From positions 1 to 64,000 of the forward strand of contig JAJDVI010000050.1 in the NCBI GenBank assembly GCA_022826195.1: a stretch of DNA of 64,000 nt, given 5' to 3'. Both the position numbers and the translations under genes were made by a program. This DNA is from Acidobacteriota bacterium. Its GTDB lineage: Bacteria; Acidobacteriota; Vicinamibacteria; Marinacidobacterales; Marinacidobacteraceae. A model generated the notes under the pieces. The model was given only the letters and a program-made list of their open reading frames with translations, searched no databases and was not told where the DNA came from. Positions 5,491 to 11,758 of the stretch are shown piece after piece; position 1 is the first letter of the stretch; each line of letters starts with the position of its first letter.

Positions 5491-6900
5491 TTACGCGGCC
5501 ACGGCAGCGCCCGCCGAGAGCAGCGCGGCCTCCTGCCAGGGAGGCGCCATCAGCTCGACGCCGAACGGCAGGCCGTCCCGGGTTCCGGCGGGGACCGCGA
5601 GGGCGGGAAGCCCGGCGAGGGAAGCCAGGATGGTGAACCGGTCCCCGTCGTAGTCTTCGCCCGCTTCGACCGGATCGGACAGCCTCCGGGGCGCCGTCCT
5701 GGCAACGGGGATGAGCAGGAACTCGCCGCGCTCGAAGTGGCCGAGCAGCCGCTTCCGGATCGCTTTCCGCGCCGCGGTGGCGGCCGCATAGATGGCGTCC
5801 CGGTAGCCCTGCGAGAGAACCGTCGTGCCCAGCAGGATCCGCAGGCGCACCTCGTCGCCGAATCCGCCCGTCCGGCTGGCGCGTATCGCCGCGGCGAGGG
5901 TTCCGTCACCCTCCAGACGGCTGCCGTAGCGCATGCCGTCGAAGCGGGCCAGGTTCGAGCTGGCTTCCGCGCAGGCCAGGACGTAGTAGGCCGAGATCGT
6001 GGTGACCGCTTCCGGCAGTTGGAAGCGGTGGATCGTCGATCCCCCCGCTTCGAACCGGCGGAGCACCCGGTGGAACGCCTCTCGCGACGGGGAGTCCAGG
6101 ATGGCGAGGTCCTCGTCGCTGCACGCCACGACGGTGCGGGGAAAGGCGGGACGGGCGGCGGCCGCCGCGAAATCCGGCACCTCCCGATCGACGCTCGTCG
6201 CATCGCGGGGGTCGGCCCCGGCGATGACCGAAAGGACCCGCCCGAGACCCTCGGGATGCGCCGCGAGGCAGCCGACCTGATCGAAGGAGGATGCGTAGGC
6301 GGTGATCCCGAAACGGGAGACGCGCCCGTAAGTGGGACGGATTCCGAAGATGCCGGTGTGCGCCGCCGGGAGGCGGACCGAGCCGCCGGTATCGGTTCCG
6401 AGAGCTGCCGGAACCGCGCCGGAGGCGACGGCCGCCGCCGGACCTCCGGACGATCCGCCGACGATGCGCTCGGGGTCCGCCGGGTTCCGGGTCGGGCCCC
6501 GGAACCCGCTCGTGGTGGCGGAACCCATGCCGAATTCGTCGAGGTTCGTGGTGCCGAGAATGACGGCGCCGGCGCCCCGGAGGCGTTCCACCACGGTGGC
6601 GTCGTAGGGCGCCCGATAGGCGCCGAGGACGGCGGATCCGGACGTGGACGGCAACCCGCGGACCGCGATGTTGTCCTTCACCGCGACCGGGAGTCCGAAG
6701 AGGGGTCCCCGGGCGGCCGGTGGCTGCCGCTCGAGCCTCCGGGCGGCCGCGGTGGCGCCGTCCCGGTCGAGATGCAGGAACGCGTGGATCCCCTGGTCGA
6801 CGTCCGCGGCGTGGTCGAGCGCGGTCGCGGTCGCCCCCGGCAGGTCGAGGCCGCGGGGTGGAAGCGGGATGCCGGACGGGTCTGCCCCGGCGGGCGTCAC
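5491..6900 (-). CDS. gatA: Aspartyl/glutamyl-tRNA(Asn/Gln) amidotransferase subunit A
   Basis: Glutaminase subunit of GatCAB, which amidates mischarged Glu-tRNA(Gln) and Asp-tRNA(Asn). It is an amidase-signature protein of 469 aa. The catalytic triad is readable: Lys in LPVAVKDNI, the cis-Ser in GGSSGGPAAAVASG, and the nucleophile Ser in GTDTGGSVRLPAA. The start is GTG and overlaps the gatC stop by 4 nt (GTGA). gatB is not in the window. Confidence 0.95.
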   Translation of the reverse strand: MTPAGADPSGIPLPPRGLDLPGATATALDHAADVDQGIHAFLHLDRDGATAAARRLERQPPAARGPLFGLPVAVKDNIAVRGLPSTSGSAVLGAYRAPYDATVVERLRGAGAVILGTTNLDEFGMGSATTSGFRGPTRNPADPERIVGGSSGGPAAAVASGAVPAALGTDTGGSVRLPAAHTGIFGIRPTYGRVSRFGITAYASSFDQVGCLAAHPEGLGRVLSVIAGADPRDATSVDREVPDFAAAAARPAFPRTVVACSDEDLAILDSPSREAFHRVLRRFEAGGSTIHRFQLPEAVTTISAYYVLACAEASSNLARFDGMRYGSRLEGDGTLAAAIRASRTGGFGDEVRLRILLGTTVLSQGYRDAIYAAATAARKAIRKRLLGHFERGEFLLIPVARTAPRRLSDPVEAGEDYDGDRFTILASLAGLPALAVPAGTRDGLPFGVELMAPPWQEAALLSAGAAVAA

Positions 6901-7245: not shown

Positions 7246-7253
7246 AGTATAGT
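7246..7253. promoter_or_regulatory. Overlapping divergent -10 elements (gatC / agmatine deiminase)
   Basis: The 8-bp string AGTATAGT reads TATAGT on plus (7248-7253) and TATACT on minus (7251-7246). The plus element ends 7 nt before GTG 7261. The minus element lies 31 nt before the gatC start. This is a symmetric -10 that could fire in both directions. Confidence 0.55.
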
Positions 7254-7260
7254 CGCGGCC

Positions 7261-8574
7261 GTGCGGGGTCCCGGCGGCATCAGCAGCACTCTGAATGCCG
7301 TTGCCGTTGTGTCCCTGACGGGGCTTCTCGCCTGTACCGCGGACCCGGCGCCGGCGACGGGAGAGGACTCTCCGGCCGAGTCCTTCGTCTTTCCCGCCGA
7401 GTTCGAACCGCATCGCGCCCTCTGGATGGCGTGGCCGACCTACGAGAACAAGCGGGGACTCCCGACGGAGCCGCTCCTCATCGAGATCATTCGCGCCACC
7501 GAGGGCAGGGTGGCCATCGACCTCCTGGCCCAGGACGACGACGAAGCGGCAGCCATCCGCGAGCGCTTTCGCCGCGAGGGGGTGCCGGACGGCCACGTGA
7601 CCATCCACGCCGTGCCGCACGGCGATGTCTGGATGCGGGACATGGGACCGATCTTCCTGCGGGGTGATCGGGGCGGTCTCCGGGTGGTCGATTTCGGATT
7701 CAACATGTGGGGTTACGAGTCTCCGGACAGTCCGAACTCCCGGCTTGAAGAAGCGGTGGACCGCCACGTCGCGGAGCTGCTCGGTCTGGAGGTGGAAAAG
7801 TCGACGCTGATCAGCGAGGGCGGCTCCCGCGAGTTCAACGGCAGGGGCGTGATGCTCGCGGTGGAGGCGGTGGAGTTGCAGCGCAACCCCGGATGGACGC
7901 TCGAAGCCATGGATGAGGAGTTCCGGCGCACCCTGGGAGTTTCCAAGGTCATCTGGCTCGCCGAAGGCATGGCGGAGGATGAACTCACGTTCCGGGGACG
8001 GCTCCCCGGCGGTGTCTACACCGTCATCACCACGGGCGGGCACGTGGATGAGTTCGCCCGCTTCGCGGACCCGGAAACCATCCTGCTCGCGGAAATCACC
8101 GAAGAGGAGCGCCGCACGGACCCGATCGCGGCGATCAGCCATGAACGGCTGGAGGAGAGTTTCCGGAGGCTCAGCGCCGCGACGGATCAGGACGGGAACC
8201 CCTTCCGCATCGTGCGCGTACCCGCGCCGGACTCGCTCTTCGACACGATGCGGGCCGGGGACGGGGTGTTCGACTACATCCAGCCCCTCGAATACGAGGA
8301 CGGATCCTCCATCGCGCCGGACGACGAGATCAGGGTCGTCGCCGCGGCGAGCTACCTGAACTTCCAGGTGACGAACGGCCTCGTGCTGGCCCAGAAGTAC
8401 TGGAAGCCCGGCATGCCGGAAAGCCTGCGGGAAAAGGACGAACGGGCGGTCGCCATCCTTCGCGAGGTCTTTCCCGGCCGCGAAGTGGTGCCTCTCGACG
8501 CCATGGCCGTCAACCTCGGCGGCGGCGGAATCCACTGCATCCTCCAGCAGGAGCCCCGTCGAGCGGTCCGGTAG
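7261..8574 (+). CDS. Agmatine deiminase family protein with lipoprotein signal peptide
   Basis: Hydrolyses agmatine to N-carbamoylputrescine and ammonia (agmatine deiminase / peptidyl-arginine deiminase fold). Family marks are FEPHRALWMAWPT, the Asp of WMRDMGP, the His of GGHVDEFARF and the catalytic Cys426 in GGGGIHCILQ. From GTG 7261 the product is 437 aa and opens with a hydrophobic segment ending in GLLAC (Cys25), a plausible lipobox, so the enzyme may be an exported, membrane-anchored lipoprotein. Typical agmatine deiminases are cytosolic. TATAGT ends 7 nt before the GTG, which suggests a leaderless transcript. A carrier and an N-carbamoylputrescine amidase follow, completing a putrescine route. 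Confidence 0.88.
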   Translation: MRGPGGISSTLNAVAVVSLTGLLACTADPAPATGEDSPAESFVFPAEFEPHRALWMAWPTYENKRGLPTEPLLIEIIRATEGRVAIDLLAQDDDEAAAIRERFRREGVPDGHVTIHAVPHGDVWMRDMGPIFLRGDRGGLRVVDFGFNMWGYESPDSPNSRLEEAVDRHVAELLGLEVEKSTLISEGGSREFNGRGVMLAVEAVELQRNPGWTLEAMDEEFRRTLGVSKVIWLAEGMAEDELTFRGRLPGGVYTVITTGGHVDEFARFADPETILLAEITEEERRTDPIAAISHERLEESFRRLSAATDQDGNPFRIVRVPAPDSLFDTMRAGDGVFDYIQPLEYEDGSSIAPDDEIRVVAAASYLNFQVTNGLVLAQKYWKPGMPESLREKDERAVAILREVFPGREVVPLDAMAVNLGGGGIHCILQQEPRRAVR

Positions 8575-8684
8575 CGGGGGTGCGACGGGACCTGCGGTGA
8601 GTACTCCAGCGCCATCTGCGCGGACTGGGTCGCACGCCCGCCACCCTCCGATGTCCACTCTGAACGGCCGGTGACTTCACTCTC

Positions 8685-10064
8685 GTGAGCGGCGCGGAGG
8701 GTTGGGGCGCCCTCAGCCTCGTTCCCAGCTTCGCGGTCCTGGGGCTGGCGGTATGGACTCGCCGGCCGCTGGAAGCCCTGATCTTCGGGTCGCTGCTCGG
8801 CCACCTCATGCTTTCGCGGGGAGGCTTCCTCGGCGCCTTTCTGGAGAACGCCCAGTCGGTGATGGCGGAGCCGGCGAGCGTCTGGGTCGTCCTGGTGGTG
8901 ATGCTCTTCGGGGCCCTCATCGGCATCCTGGCCCGCGCCGGAGGATCGAAGGCGTTCGGGGAGGCGCTCTCCCGGCGGCTCCGCACCCGCCGCGGGGTCC
9001 TGCTGGGCGCCTTCGGCCTCGGCGTCGTGACCTTCGTCGACGACTATCTGAACGCGTTGGCGGTGGGGGCCGCGTTTCGGGGAGCGGCGGACCGGATGGG
9101 CATCTCGCGGGCCCGGCTCGCCTACGTGGTGGACAGCACGGCCGCGCCCATCTGCGTGCTGATTCCCGCTTCGACGTGGACGGTCTTCATCGCCGGGCTC
9201 TTCGAGGCGAACGGACTCGCCGAGGCGGGTGGCGGCATCGGTCTCTACGTCTCCCTGATCCCGTATCTCCTCTATCCCTGGTTCGCGATCCTGCTGGTGT
9301 TCGCGGTGATCCTGGGGGCGGTCCGCGATCTGGGGCCGATGGCGGACGCCGAGCGCGAACTCCGTTCGGGAGCGGCTCCGGCGACCGCGGCCCTCGACGA
9401 GAGCCTCGAACCGGCCACGACCGGGGCCCCGGCGCGTCCCGGCCTGCGGGCCCCGGCCTTCCTGGTCCCGATCCTGGTCCTGCCGGCCGCCACGGTGGCG
9501 CTCGGCGGGGACGCGCTCTTCGGCGTGGTGGCGGCACTGGCCGTCGCCCTGGCGCTGACGGCGTTCGTGCGGCCGGCCGGTGGCCTGGGGCCCGTCGCCG
9601 ACGGAGCGTTCCTGGGGATGGAGAAGATGGTCTATCCCCTGGGGATCGTGCTGGTCTCCTTCATCCTGCGGGACGTGAACGCCGCGCTGGGGCTGACCGA
9701 ATTCGTGATCGGCAGCGTGCAGCCGATCGCGAGCGCCTGGATGCTGCCGGCGCTCGTGTTCGTCACCCTCTCCGGAGTGGCGTTCGCCACCGGTTCGTTC
9801 TGGGGGGCCTACACGGTCAGCTTGCCGGTGGTGGTCGGCCTGGCGACCGAATTGGGCGCTCCGCTGCCGCTGACGCTCGGCGCGCTGGTTTCGGCGGGGG
9901 CCTTCGGCTCCCACGCCTGCTTCTACGGTGACGCCACGGTGCTCGCCGCGCGGAGCGCGGGGTGTTCCATCATGGAGCACGTCAGGACGCAGTTCCCCTA
10001 CGCCCTCATCGGCGCGGGGGCCGCACTCGCCGGATTCACGCTGCTCGGCCTGGTGGCCGGTTAG
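8685..10064 (+). CDS. NhaC-family antiporter/permease in the agmatine module
   Basis: 459-aa integral membrane protein with about eleven hydrophobic segments. The paired internal repeats are typical of the NhaC family, including VVTFVDDYLNALAVG with charged residues in a membrane segment and GVAFATGSFWGAYTVSLP in the second half. The family contains Na+/H+ antiporters and exchangers of organic substrates. It sits between the exported agmatine deiminase and the cytosolic-looking amidase. An inferred role is uptake of N-carbamoylputrescine or exchange of an amine; substrate specificity cannot be read from the sequence. GTG start; 110 bp separate it from the deiminase. Confidence 0.8.
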   Translation: MSGAEGWGALSLVPSFAVLGLAVWTRRPLEALIFGSLLGHLMLSRGGFLGAFLENAQSVMAEPASVWVVLVVMLFGALIGILARAGGSKAFGEALSRRLRTRRGVLLGAFGLGVVTFVDDYLNALAVGAAFRGAADRMGISRARLAYVVDSTAAPICVLIPASTWTVFIAGLFEANGLAEAGGGIGLYVSLIPYLLYPWFAILLVFAVILGAVRDLGPMADAERELRSGAAPATAALDESLEPATTGAPARPGLRAPAFLVPILVLPAATVALGGDALFGVVAALAVALALTAFVRPAGGLGPVADGAFLGMEKMVYPLGIVLVSFILRDVNAALGLTEFVIGSVQPIASAWMLPALVFVTLSGVAFATGSFWGAYTVSLPVVVGLATELGAPLPLTLGALVSAGAFGSHACFYGDATVLAARSAGCSIMEHVRTQFPYALIGAGAALAGFTLLGLVAG

Positions 10065-10130
10065 CCCACCGTTTTCCGGCTCTGCGGCGTCAAGTCCGGC
10101 CCGCCGCCTTGCCGGAGGGCCCGCGCACGG

Positions 10131-10136
10131 CAGAAT
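10131..10136 (+). promoter_or_regulatory. -10-like element of the amidase gene
   Basis: CAGAAT ends 6 nt before the ATG at 10143, inside one of the few A/T-richer patches here (CAGAATTAACCC). Initiation would start the mRNA at the ATG. No -35 is recognisable. Confidence 0.4.
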
Positions 10137-10142
10137 TAACCC

Positions 10143-11030
10143 ATGCCCGCTGACCCGCAGCCAACCGGCCGCCCCCGGCTCGCCCTGATCCAGCGGGCGA
10201 TCGAGCCCGATCGGGACGCCGCCCACCGGGGCGCGGTCGAGGCCGTTCGCGCCGCGGCGGCGGGCGGCGCGCAGATCGTCGCGCTGCCCGAGCTGTACGA
10301 CCTCCCGTACTTTCCCCGGCAGGTCGCGGTGGAGGGCTGGCGGCTGGCGGAGCGGCAGCCCTCGGACCGGGTCCGGGAGCTCGGCCGGCTCGCCGCCGAA
10401 CTCGGCATCGTGCTCGTCGTGCCGGTCTTCGAGGAAGCGGCCCCGGGAGTGCTCTTCAACGCCGCGGTGCTCTACGACGCGGACGGCAGCCAACTGGGCT
10501 TGTACCGCAAGAATCACATTCCGGACGGGCCCGGCTACCACGAGAAGTACTACTTCACGCCCGGCGATACCGGTTATCCCGTCTGGGAGACGGCCTACGG
10601 ACGCATCGGGGTCGGTGTCTGCTGGGACTCATGGTTCCCCGAGACGGCGCGCCTCCTCGCGCTCGGCGGCGCCGACCTGCTGCTCTTCCCCACCGCGATC
10701 GGCAGCGAACCGGATCGCCCGGAGTACTCGTCGGAAGATGCCTGGCGGACGGTCATGCGCGGCCACGCGATCGCGAACGGTGTCTTCGTCGGGGCCCCGA
10801 ACCGGGTGGGCGTCGAGGGTCCCATGACCTACTACGGCGGAAGTTTCGTGTGCGATCCCTTCGGCGAAGTGGTCGCCCGCGCCGGAGCGGGCCCCGACAT
10901 CGTGTTCGCCGATCTCGATTTCGGCAGGAACCGGGAACTGCGGGAACTGCTCCAGTTCTTCCGGGACCGGCGGACCGACACCTACGGCGGCCTGTTGCGG
11001 GTCGCGCCGGACTCCGGGAAAGCGCGTTAG
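10143..11030 (+). CDS. aguB: N-carbamoylputrescine amidase (carbon-nitrogen hydrolase)
   Basis: Nitrilase-superfamily enzyme that converts N-carbamoylputrescine to putrescine, CO2 and ammonia. It has 295 aa, the usual size. The Glu-Lys-Cys triad is visible: Glu50 in ALPELYD, Lys123 in YRKNHIPDGPGY and Cys160 in GVGVCWDSWFPE. The strings KNHIPDGPGYHEKYYFTPGD and CWDSWFPE are characteristic of the AguB/plant amidase subgroup. No signal peptide is seen, so it acts in the cytoplasm. It is preceded by the agmatine deiminase and the carrier, which supports the specific assignment. Confidence 0.92.
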   Translation: MPADPQPTGRPRLALIQRAIEPDRDAAHRGAVEAVRAAAAGGAQIVALPELYDLPYFPRQVAVEGWRLAERQPSDRVRELGRLAAELGIVLVVPVFEEAAPGVLFNAAVLYDADGSQLGLYRKNHIPDGPGYHEKYYFTPGDTGYPVWETAYGRIGVGVCWDSWFPETARLLALGGADLLLFPTAIGSEPDRPEYSSEDAWRTVMRGHAIANGVFVGAPNRVGVEGPMTYYGGSFVCDPFGEVVARAGAGPDIVFADLDFGRNRELRELLQFFRDRRTDTYGGLLRVAPDSGKAR

Positions 11031-11032
11031 AC

Positions 11033-11758
11033 GTGGAAAACCCTCGCGTCCGCGAGCAGGTGTTCCTGACCCTCGCCGCGGTCTTCATCGCGGCGCTCAT
11101 CGCCTGCAACCTGATCTTCCGGAAGTTCTTCGTCTGGGAGATCCCCGCGCTCGGCCTGATCGGCCTGGAGCCGCGGATGGAACTCTCGGTGGGGATCCTG
11201 GCGTATCCGGTCACCTTCATCTGTACGGACGTGCTGTCGGAGTTCTATGGCCGCCGGCGGGTGAGCCAACTGGTCACGGCCGGGTTCTTTGCGAGCGTCT
11301 TCGTGGTGGGGCTGGTGATGCTCTCCAACTGGGTGCCGGCGGCGGGCTGGAGCGCCGTGGACGACGCCACGTTCGACCTGGTCTTCGGGATTCAGGGGGT
11401 TGCGGTCGCGGCTTCCATGTGCGCCTACCTGGGGGCCCAGTACCTCGACATCCGGCTGTTTCACTACTGGAAACGCCGGACCCACGGACGCCATCTGTGG
11501 CTTCGGAACAACGCCTCCACGTTCACCTCGCAACTCGTGGACACGATCCTCGTGACCACCATCCTCTCCTTGCTCGGGGCAAGCGAGATCACCCCGGAGC
11601 GGCTGCCGATCCTGATCGCCAATGGCGTGGTGTTCAAGTGGTTCGTCGCCGTCGTGGACACCCCGCTCGTCTACGGGGCGGTGTGGTTCATGCGAAACCG
11701 GCTCGGGATCGAGGAGGCTCCGGCGGACGACCGGCCGGCGCGAACGCGGATCCTCTGA
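11033..11758 (+). CDS. Queuosine-precursor transporter, YhhQ/VUT family
   Basis: 241-aa membrane protein from GTG 11033, two bases after the amidase stop. About six hydrophobic segments are visible. Family features include the N-terminal ACNLIFRKFF, ILAYPVTFICTDVLSEFYGRRRV, the FDLVFG-type loop and the C-terminal LIANGVVFKWFVAVVDTPLVY. YhhQ proteins import queuosine precursors (preQ0/preQ1). No other queuosine genes are nearby, so the substrate follows from the family, not the context. Confidence 0.88.
   Translation: MENPRVREQVFLTLAAVFIAALIACNLIFRKFFVWEIPALGLIGLEPRMELSVGILAYPVTFICTDVLSEFYGRRRVSQLVTAGFFASVFVVGLVMLSNWVPAAGWSAVDDATFDLVFGIQGVAVAASMCAYLGAQYLDIRLFHYWKRRTHGRHLWLRNNASTFTSQLVDTILVTTILSLLGASEITPERLPILIANGVVFKWFVAVVDTPLVYGAVWFMRNRLGIEEAPADDRPARTRIL

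Follow-up and report, generated by a model that had tools for sequence, protein, structure and literature searches.

The aguA-nhaC-aguB locus and the exported deiminase

We analysed a 64,000-nucleotide stretch of DNA (the window), part of a 3.85 Mb metagenome-assembled genome (MAG) of an Acidobacteriota bacterium, in which an agmatine deiminase-like gene (aguA), a gene for a carrier of the NhaC family and a gene for an N-carbamoylputrescine amidase-like enzyme (aguB) lie together. An earlier sequence-only reading had placed the three genes at 7261-11030 and had proposed that agmatine is hydrolysed outside the cytoplasm and its product imported; the span proved exact, with all three genes on the plus strand. 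The relatives used for comparison were Acidobacteriota MAGs, namely the genus g1 (in which G000 and G002-G007 carry aguA), the sister genus (G008), the family f1 (G000-G009) and the order (14 genomes). The main features of the locus are the following.

7248..7253, + strand: TATAGT box, 7 nt 5' of the GTG, putative -10 element for a transcript with little or no leader
7261..7335, + strand: predicted lipoprotein-type signal peptide, residues 1-25, lipobox LLA-Cys25
7336..7380, + strand: linker of variable sequence before the folded domain (roughly residues 26-40), fast-changing and rich in Gly, Ala, Pro and Glu
7261..8574, + strand: aguA-like PF04371 deiminase, exported long form
8685..10064, + strand: NhaC-family carrier (PF03553, 4e-25), polyamine-associated clade
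10143..11030, + strand: aguB-like N-carbamoylputrescine amidase (PF00795, 4.9e-57), no signal peptide

The deiminase reading frame opens with GTG and its product begins with MRGPGGISSTLNAVAVVSLTGLLAC. The PROSITE lipoprotein rule PS51257 matches this sequence at Cys25, and the same rule matched 0.6% of 20,000 composition-matched shuffles, 7 of the 126 called genes and none of 15 canonical AguAs. The hydrophobic stretch and the cysteine are kept in all seven g1 genomes and in G008, where the deiminase begins with ALALALMAGVGC. One genus member (L032) departs from the strict rule by a Trp at -2, and G008, as numbered, by having its first Arg at residue 8; in G008, a TTG in the same frame, three codons further 5', yields LGRVDPHPEHRRAALALALMAGVGC.

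Just 5' of the GTG, the box GCGAGTATAGTCG is identical in 7 of 7 g1 genomes, and a TATATT box precedes the ATG of the G009 deiminase. As a generic sigma-70 scan called no promoter at the TATAGT box, its promoter function is put forward as a candidate one. The synonymous share of codon differences was 36% in the signal and 68% in the mature part, against 12% in a non-coding upstream control of 60 bases and 13% in the linker. Two lines of evidence, independent of each other, thus place the start at the GTG: the invariant box, as in leaderless transcripts, and a coding constraint on the signal codons; a misread start was rejected on the conserved box, the GTG and this constraint. In the window gene the first start codon past Cys25 is the ATG of codon 56, which falls within a core strand (residues 51-57) of the AlphaFold model, so that no fold-competent cytosolic start is available and a cytosolic form would be truncated. 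Residues 1-26 are disordered in that model and the signal region has a pLDDT below 50.

Export of the deiminase as a lipoprotein-type protein is therefore well supported, with Cys25 as the predicted site of the lipid. The lipoprotein signal that the sequence-only reading thought plausible is borne out by the PS51257 match, by conservation in the genus and in G008 and by the codon constraint. That reading had named cytosolic starts past Cys25 in orthologues as the case against it; none occurs in the genus and, outside it, G009 has a deiminase with no signal (MAPRTPVATASRVGSDGGSGPETFVFPGEF).

The deiminase scores 251 bits against PF04371 (gathering threshold 25, E = 2.2e-74). Its best NCBIfam model is the equivalog TIGR03380 (AguA), with 173.1 bits compared to a cut-off of 381.8. 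The closest solved structures, by sequence as well as by fold, are mostly agmatine deiminases (AgDIs). Foldseek returned AgDIs at E about 1e-25 to 1e-33, above the exported Porphyromonas deiminase PPAD at about 1e-21 to 1e-22, and a Chlorobium relative with no assayed activity at 5e-35. Using the residue equivalences given for the E. faecalis AgDI and PPAD (PMC4487231), we found that Trp124, Asp127, His261, Asp263, Asn367 and Cys426 correspond to AgDI Trp93, Asp96, His218, Asp220, Asn306 and Cys357, all of which are kept; Glu186, of the EGG motif, is invariant too. The PPAD motif YNR(152)PR(154), read from primers in the same paper, is absent and FNMWG stands in its place, as in AgDIs. A PPAD-like peptidyl substrate was rejected, the Arg152/Arg154 carboxylate site being missing. 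The conserved pocket, the FNMWG motif and the Foldseek ranking together point to agmatine as the likeliest substrate, as judged from alignment and modelled fold.

Amidase, carrier and their neighbours in relatives

The amidase finds its best model in the NCBIfam equivalog TIGR03381 (AguB; 4e-91, 305.2 bits compared to a cut-off of 410.25) and its best match in the Protein Data Bank in the N-carbamoylputrescine amidohydrolase 5h8i (1.4e-66). The nitrilase triad Glu50-Lys123-Cys160 can be read from the alignment and, by inspection, the protein has no hydrophobic N-terminus. The earlier statements that the amidase carries no signal and that a carrier gene separates it from the deiminase both hold.

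The carrier belongs to PF03553 at the family level. It reaches 30 of the 370 bits set for TIGR00931 (NhaC sensu stricto) and matches the NCBIfam ArcD-type model weakly (38 bits compared to 650). It is 32-34% identical to the paralogues of its own genome, compared to 41-51% for NhaCs elsewhere, and groups apart from those paralogues in a single clade with polyamine-adjacent NhaCs (support 100/100); in this tree the outgroup branches are long and the inner placement of a Halomonas fragment is weak (82/87).

The clade members have the following neighbours. Thioclava has a gene of the glutamine-synthetase family, one for an FAD oxidoreductase and one for a glutamine amidotransferase; Vibrio (39.5% identity) has a glutamine-synthetase-family gene together with one resembling gamma-Glu-GABA hydrolase; Shewanella has a glutamine-synthetase-family gene; and Photobacterium has a histone-deacetylase-family hydrolase, possibly an acetylpolyamine amidohydrolase. 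The Thioclava and Vibrio sets are called puu-type here from their gene content, because the glutamine-synthetase-family proteins score below the cut-off for gamma-glutamylputrescine synthetase. In Pseudoalteromonas, neither of the two members lies next to a polyamine gene. A plasmid search for long-form deiminases gave distant proteins only, of about 30% identity or less among the matches listed, and led to the plasmid of Halomonas sp. PA16-9 (L116:1155-5107), where a class III aminotransferase, an NhaC and a signal-less aguA follow each other; this NhaC is 48-51% identical to the window carrier and its frame is broken by two frameshifts in the record.

Additionally, G010 and G013, two genomes from a sister family within the order, have an NhaC of the clade (41-42% identity) directly behind a spermidine dehydrogenase gene.

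L088:6794-10186 (G010): spermidine dehydrogenase and NhaC pair
L089:17-2597 (G013): spermidine dehydrogenase and NhaC pair

The G010 enzyme matches SpdH (E = 7e-162) and carries RRDFLNGVSIAVTSSLFSC, a Tat-like signal, and the G013 gene, which the contig end truncates, was recognised from its similarity to that of G010. The P. aeruginosa SpdH has been read as Tat-exported (PMC11107197). The two loci make a second possible pairing of an enzyme outside with a carrier.

Within the order, a close NhaC occurs in 10 of the 14 genomes, always beside a signal-bearing deiminase or a spermidine dehydrogenase. All clade members have Asp276, which is Ser in the three outgroup sequences, a weak hint that it may form a cation site. 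In Halobacterium, a carrier of the NhaC family has been described as an arginine/ornithine exchanger (PMC5300872). The cargo of the window carrier is probably an amine.

The order aguA-nhaC-aguB is constant in the g1 genomes with aguA, aguB being cut by the contig end in G006, and none of the three close orthologues was found in G001 (66% complete). In G008, aguA and nhaC are paired and aguB lies with yhhQ on another contig. Carriers unlinked to the deiminase, which the sequence-only reading had held would speak against it, thus do not occur in the genus, and the pairing extends to G008. In G009, aguA, aguB and yhhQ are adjacent, and a close NhaC was absent from this MAG (92% complete; best match about 35%). 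In the deiminase tree the exported long forms cluster and the G009 protein is the sole unexported one among them (two label changes); because it lies inside the exported clade, a joint loss of export and carrier is the simplest reading. The survey of gene order and signal suggested earlier therefore comes out positive in g1 and, for the aguA-nhaC pair with its signal, in G008, while the loss of both signal and carrier in G009 fits the proposal as one event.

Of the canonical short AguAs in the class, those examined lack a signal and are encoded next to aguB. Long-form deiminases that share the fold and are exported also occur at L039:572-1852, L102:1453-2700 and L052:9944-11176, with neither AguB nor NhaC adjacent and no equivalent of AgDI Trp93.

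Two further genes flank the locus.

11033..11758, + strand: YhhQ/Vut_1-type transporter gene (queuosine-precursor type; PF02592, 1.6e-46), 3' of aguB
5491-6900, - strand: GatA-like amidase, divergent from the deiminase

yhhQ directly follows aguB wherever contigs in the family allow a view, G008 and G009 included, even where aguB is away from aguA; we regard it as a conserved neighbour and do not think that it belongs to the pathway. The divergent amidase occupies the same place in the relatives examined. It was considered as AguY, an alternative N-carbamoylputrescine amidase, and rejected; its best solved relatives are GatA proteins (1.4e-103), and it was taken as GatA.

Agmatine supply and a proposed compartment-split route

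A search of the family (G000-G009) for four known types of arginine decarboxylase found none. PF02784 matched at most one protein per family genome (none in the incomplete G001), of which the G000 copy is LysA and the G009 copy looks alike, and neither PF01276 nor pyruvoyl arginine decarboxylases were found in the family. Likewise, no SpeD-family protein and no convincing SpeE were found there. A relative in the class (G032) has both SpeA and a SpeD-family protein. Considering that the MAGs are 66-93% complete, a gene may be missed in one genome, not easily in all ten. With no known arginine decarboxylase in the family, agmatine likely comes from outside the cell. An arginase is present in G000.

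We hold a compartment-split catabolic route for agmatine, or for a close guanidino-amine, to be the best reading of the locus, with confidence slightly better than even. The deiminase would be made from a leaderless-type mRNA, exported via Sec and lipidated at Cys25, and would convert external agmatine to N-carbamoylputrescine and NH3 in the periplasm or on the envelope. The NhaC-family carrier would then move N-carbamoylputrescine, a monovalent amine, over the inner membrane, coupled to Na+/H+ or against putrescine efflux, and the cytosolic AguB, going by its family, would yield putrescine, NH3 and CO2.

That N-carbamoylputrescine is the cargo follows, in this scheme, from topology: its import is required if the deiminase works on agmatine outside and AguB works inside. 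The split pathway proposed earlier thus stands as to export, and amine uptake fits the polyamine clade of the carrier and the lack of a detected arginine decarboxylase; N-carbamoylputrescine as the cargo we only infer. It is made doubtful by relatives of the carrier that adjoin putrescine-degradation genes and an aguA lacking a signal, settings in which one would expect agmatine or putrescine as the natural cargo. The aim stated in the sequence-only reading, putrescine formation, is uncertain, and catabolism is likelier given that SpeD and a convincing SpeE were not found.

Several observations weigh against the split route. The TIGR03380 score lies so far under its cut-off that agmatine is unproven as the substrate. 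The clade NhaC of Halomonas PA16-9 adjoins an aguA with no signal and the Thioclava and Vibrio members sit in puu-type sets, so that agmatine or putrescine may be the usual cargo. The correlated loss in G009 is a single event in one MAG, with no statistical weight, and an AguB-like amidase there adjoins the unexported deiminase with no carrier. Moreover, the family of the carrier handles several cargoes, and the MAGs compared have gaps. Finally, G068, G430 and a Chitinophagales MAG have exported long-form deiminases with no such carrier or amidase alongside.

The explanation that competes best, which we take seriously though we consider it unlikely, keeps the exported deiminase and has the NhaC protein carry putrescine (or agmatine and putrescine), exporting or exchanging what AguB makes, with N-carbamoylputrescine entering by another route or as a minor cargo of this carrier. 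The putrescine and spermidine catabolic genes next to clade members and the Halomonas signal-less aguA speak for it, and an agmatine/putrescine exchange is known in the agmatine deiminase system (AguD, PMC10135574). Nevertheless, a deiminase outside and an amidase inside still need a carrier for N-carbamoylputrescine, and no carrier other than NhaC stays with the deiminase, NhaC being missing where the deiminase is unexported.

It is less probable still, and would surprise us, that the exported enzyme acts on a different guanidino compound (arginine in free form, arginine at the C-terminus of peptides as with PPAD, or a natural product bearing a guanidino group), with NhaC importing the product or a derived amine and AguB being separate or catalysing a broader carbamoyl-amine reaction. 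PPAD is a precedent for an AgDI-like enzyme exported with a changed substrate (PMC4487231), the AguA and AguB scores are both below their cut-offs, the window deiminase is a long form with extra loops, and the equivalent of Trp93 has gone from other exported relatives. However, every comparable AgDI pocket residue is kept in the window deiminase, the PPAD arginines are absent, AgDIs come before PPAD in the fold search, and in g1 and G009 the amidase next to the deiminase is of the AguB type.

We give little credence to the view that the exported deiminase serves scavenging or detoxification and thereby supplies ammonia in the periplasm, with the rest of the cluster only loosely connected: orphan exported long-form deiminases with no AguB or NhaC do exist, but g1 keeps the aguA-nhaC-aguB order and G008 keeps aguA paired with nhaC. 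An ordinary cytosolic AguA-AguB pathway, with the start misread or the hydrophobic N-terminal stretch lacking a function, is the least credible. The canonical AguAs of the class and the G009 protein do begin at the domain with no signal, but the conserved box with its GTG, the coding constraint, the lack of a downstream start in the window gene and the lipobox-like cysteine in a second genus all oppose it.

Comparison with known systems

That AguA-AguB pathways described so far are cytosolic, as the sequence-only reading stated, is in line with the part of the open-access literature that was covered; in that part, no paper on a periplasmic or secreted agmatine deiminase or on an N-carbamoylputrescine transporter was found. 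In marine and host-associated microbiomes, nitrogen can be drawn from polyamines and agmatine. If the split route is true, the locus provides a defined gene pair for studying extracytoplasmic agmatine deimination, and a deiminase and an amidase in a genome need not imply cytosolic putrescine synthesis. A carrier clade present in several phyla, annotated merely as "Na+/H+ antiporter", could be named as amine transporters. More tentatively, and here we lean towards doubt, the polyamine-associated NhaC clade may consist of importers of partly processed polyamines paired with exported trimming enzymes, the deiminase here and spermidine dehydrogenase in the sister family. This would amount to a general strategy of trimming polyamines outside and importing the products, which is not described in the portion of the open-access literature searched.

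The AguA-AguB pathway of Pseudomonas, plants and Bacteroides has the same two steps, by family, and the same catalytic residues as the window enzymes; here, in contrast, the deiminase is a long form with lipoprotein-type export, a carrier of the NhaC clade is encoded between the two genes and no arginine decarboxylase was found in the genome. The Enterococcus agmatine deiminase system with its AguD antiporter likewise associates a carrier gene with the deiminase and catabolises external agmatine, whereas its deiminase is not exported and its second step is a putrescine transcarbamylase. The AguD carrier is of another kind and is not an NhaC. In the aguA-PotD-aguB clusters of Shewanella (PMC12283126), a transport gene also stands between deiminase and amidase and external agmatine catabolism is the reading given; the place of NhaC is taken by an ABC substrate-binding protein and no exported deiminase is described there.

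PPAD is exported and has the same fold as the window deiminase, and is thought to be AgDI-derived; its Arg152 and Arg154 and its extra C-terminal domains are missing here. The NhaC-family arginine/ornithine exchanger of Halobacterium (PMC5300872) also lies beside a deiminase pathway and moves cationic amino acids; it is likened to the window carrier, whose cargo is predicted, through the family and the ArcD-type model only (38 vs 650 bits). SpdH of P. aeruginosa (PMC11107197) differs in cleaving spermidine oxidatively, in its Tat export and in being an unrelated enzyme. In the same way as proposed for the window deiminase, it is an exported polyamine-trimming enzyme, and in G010 and G013 its gene adjoins the same NhaC clade.

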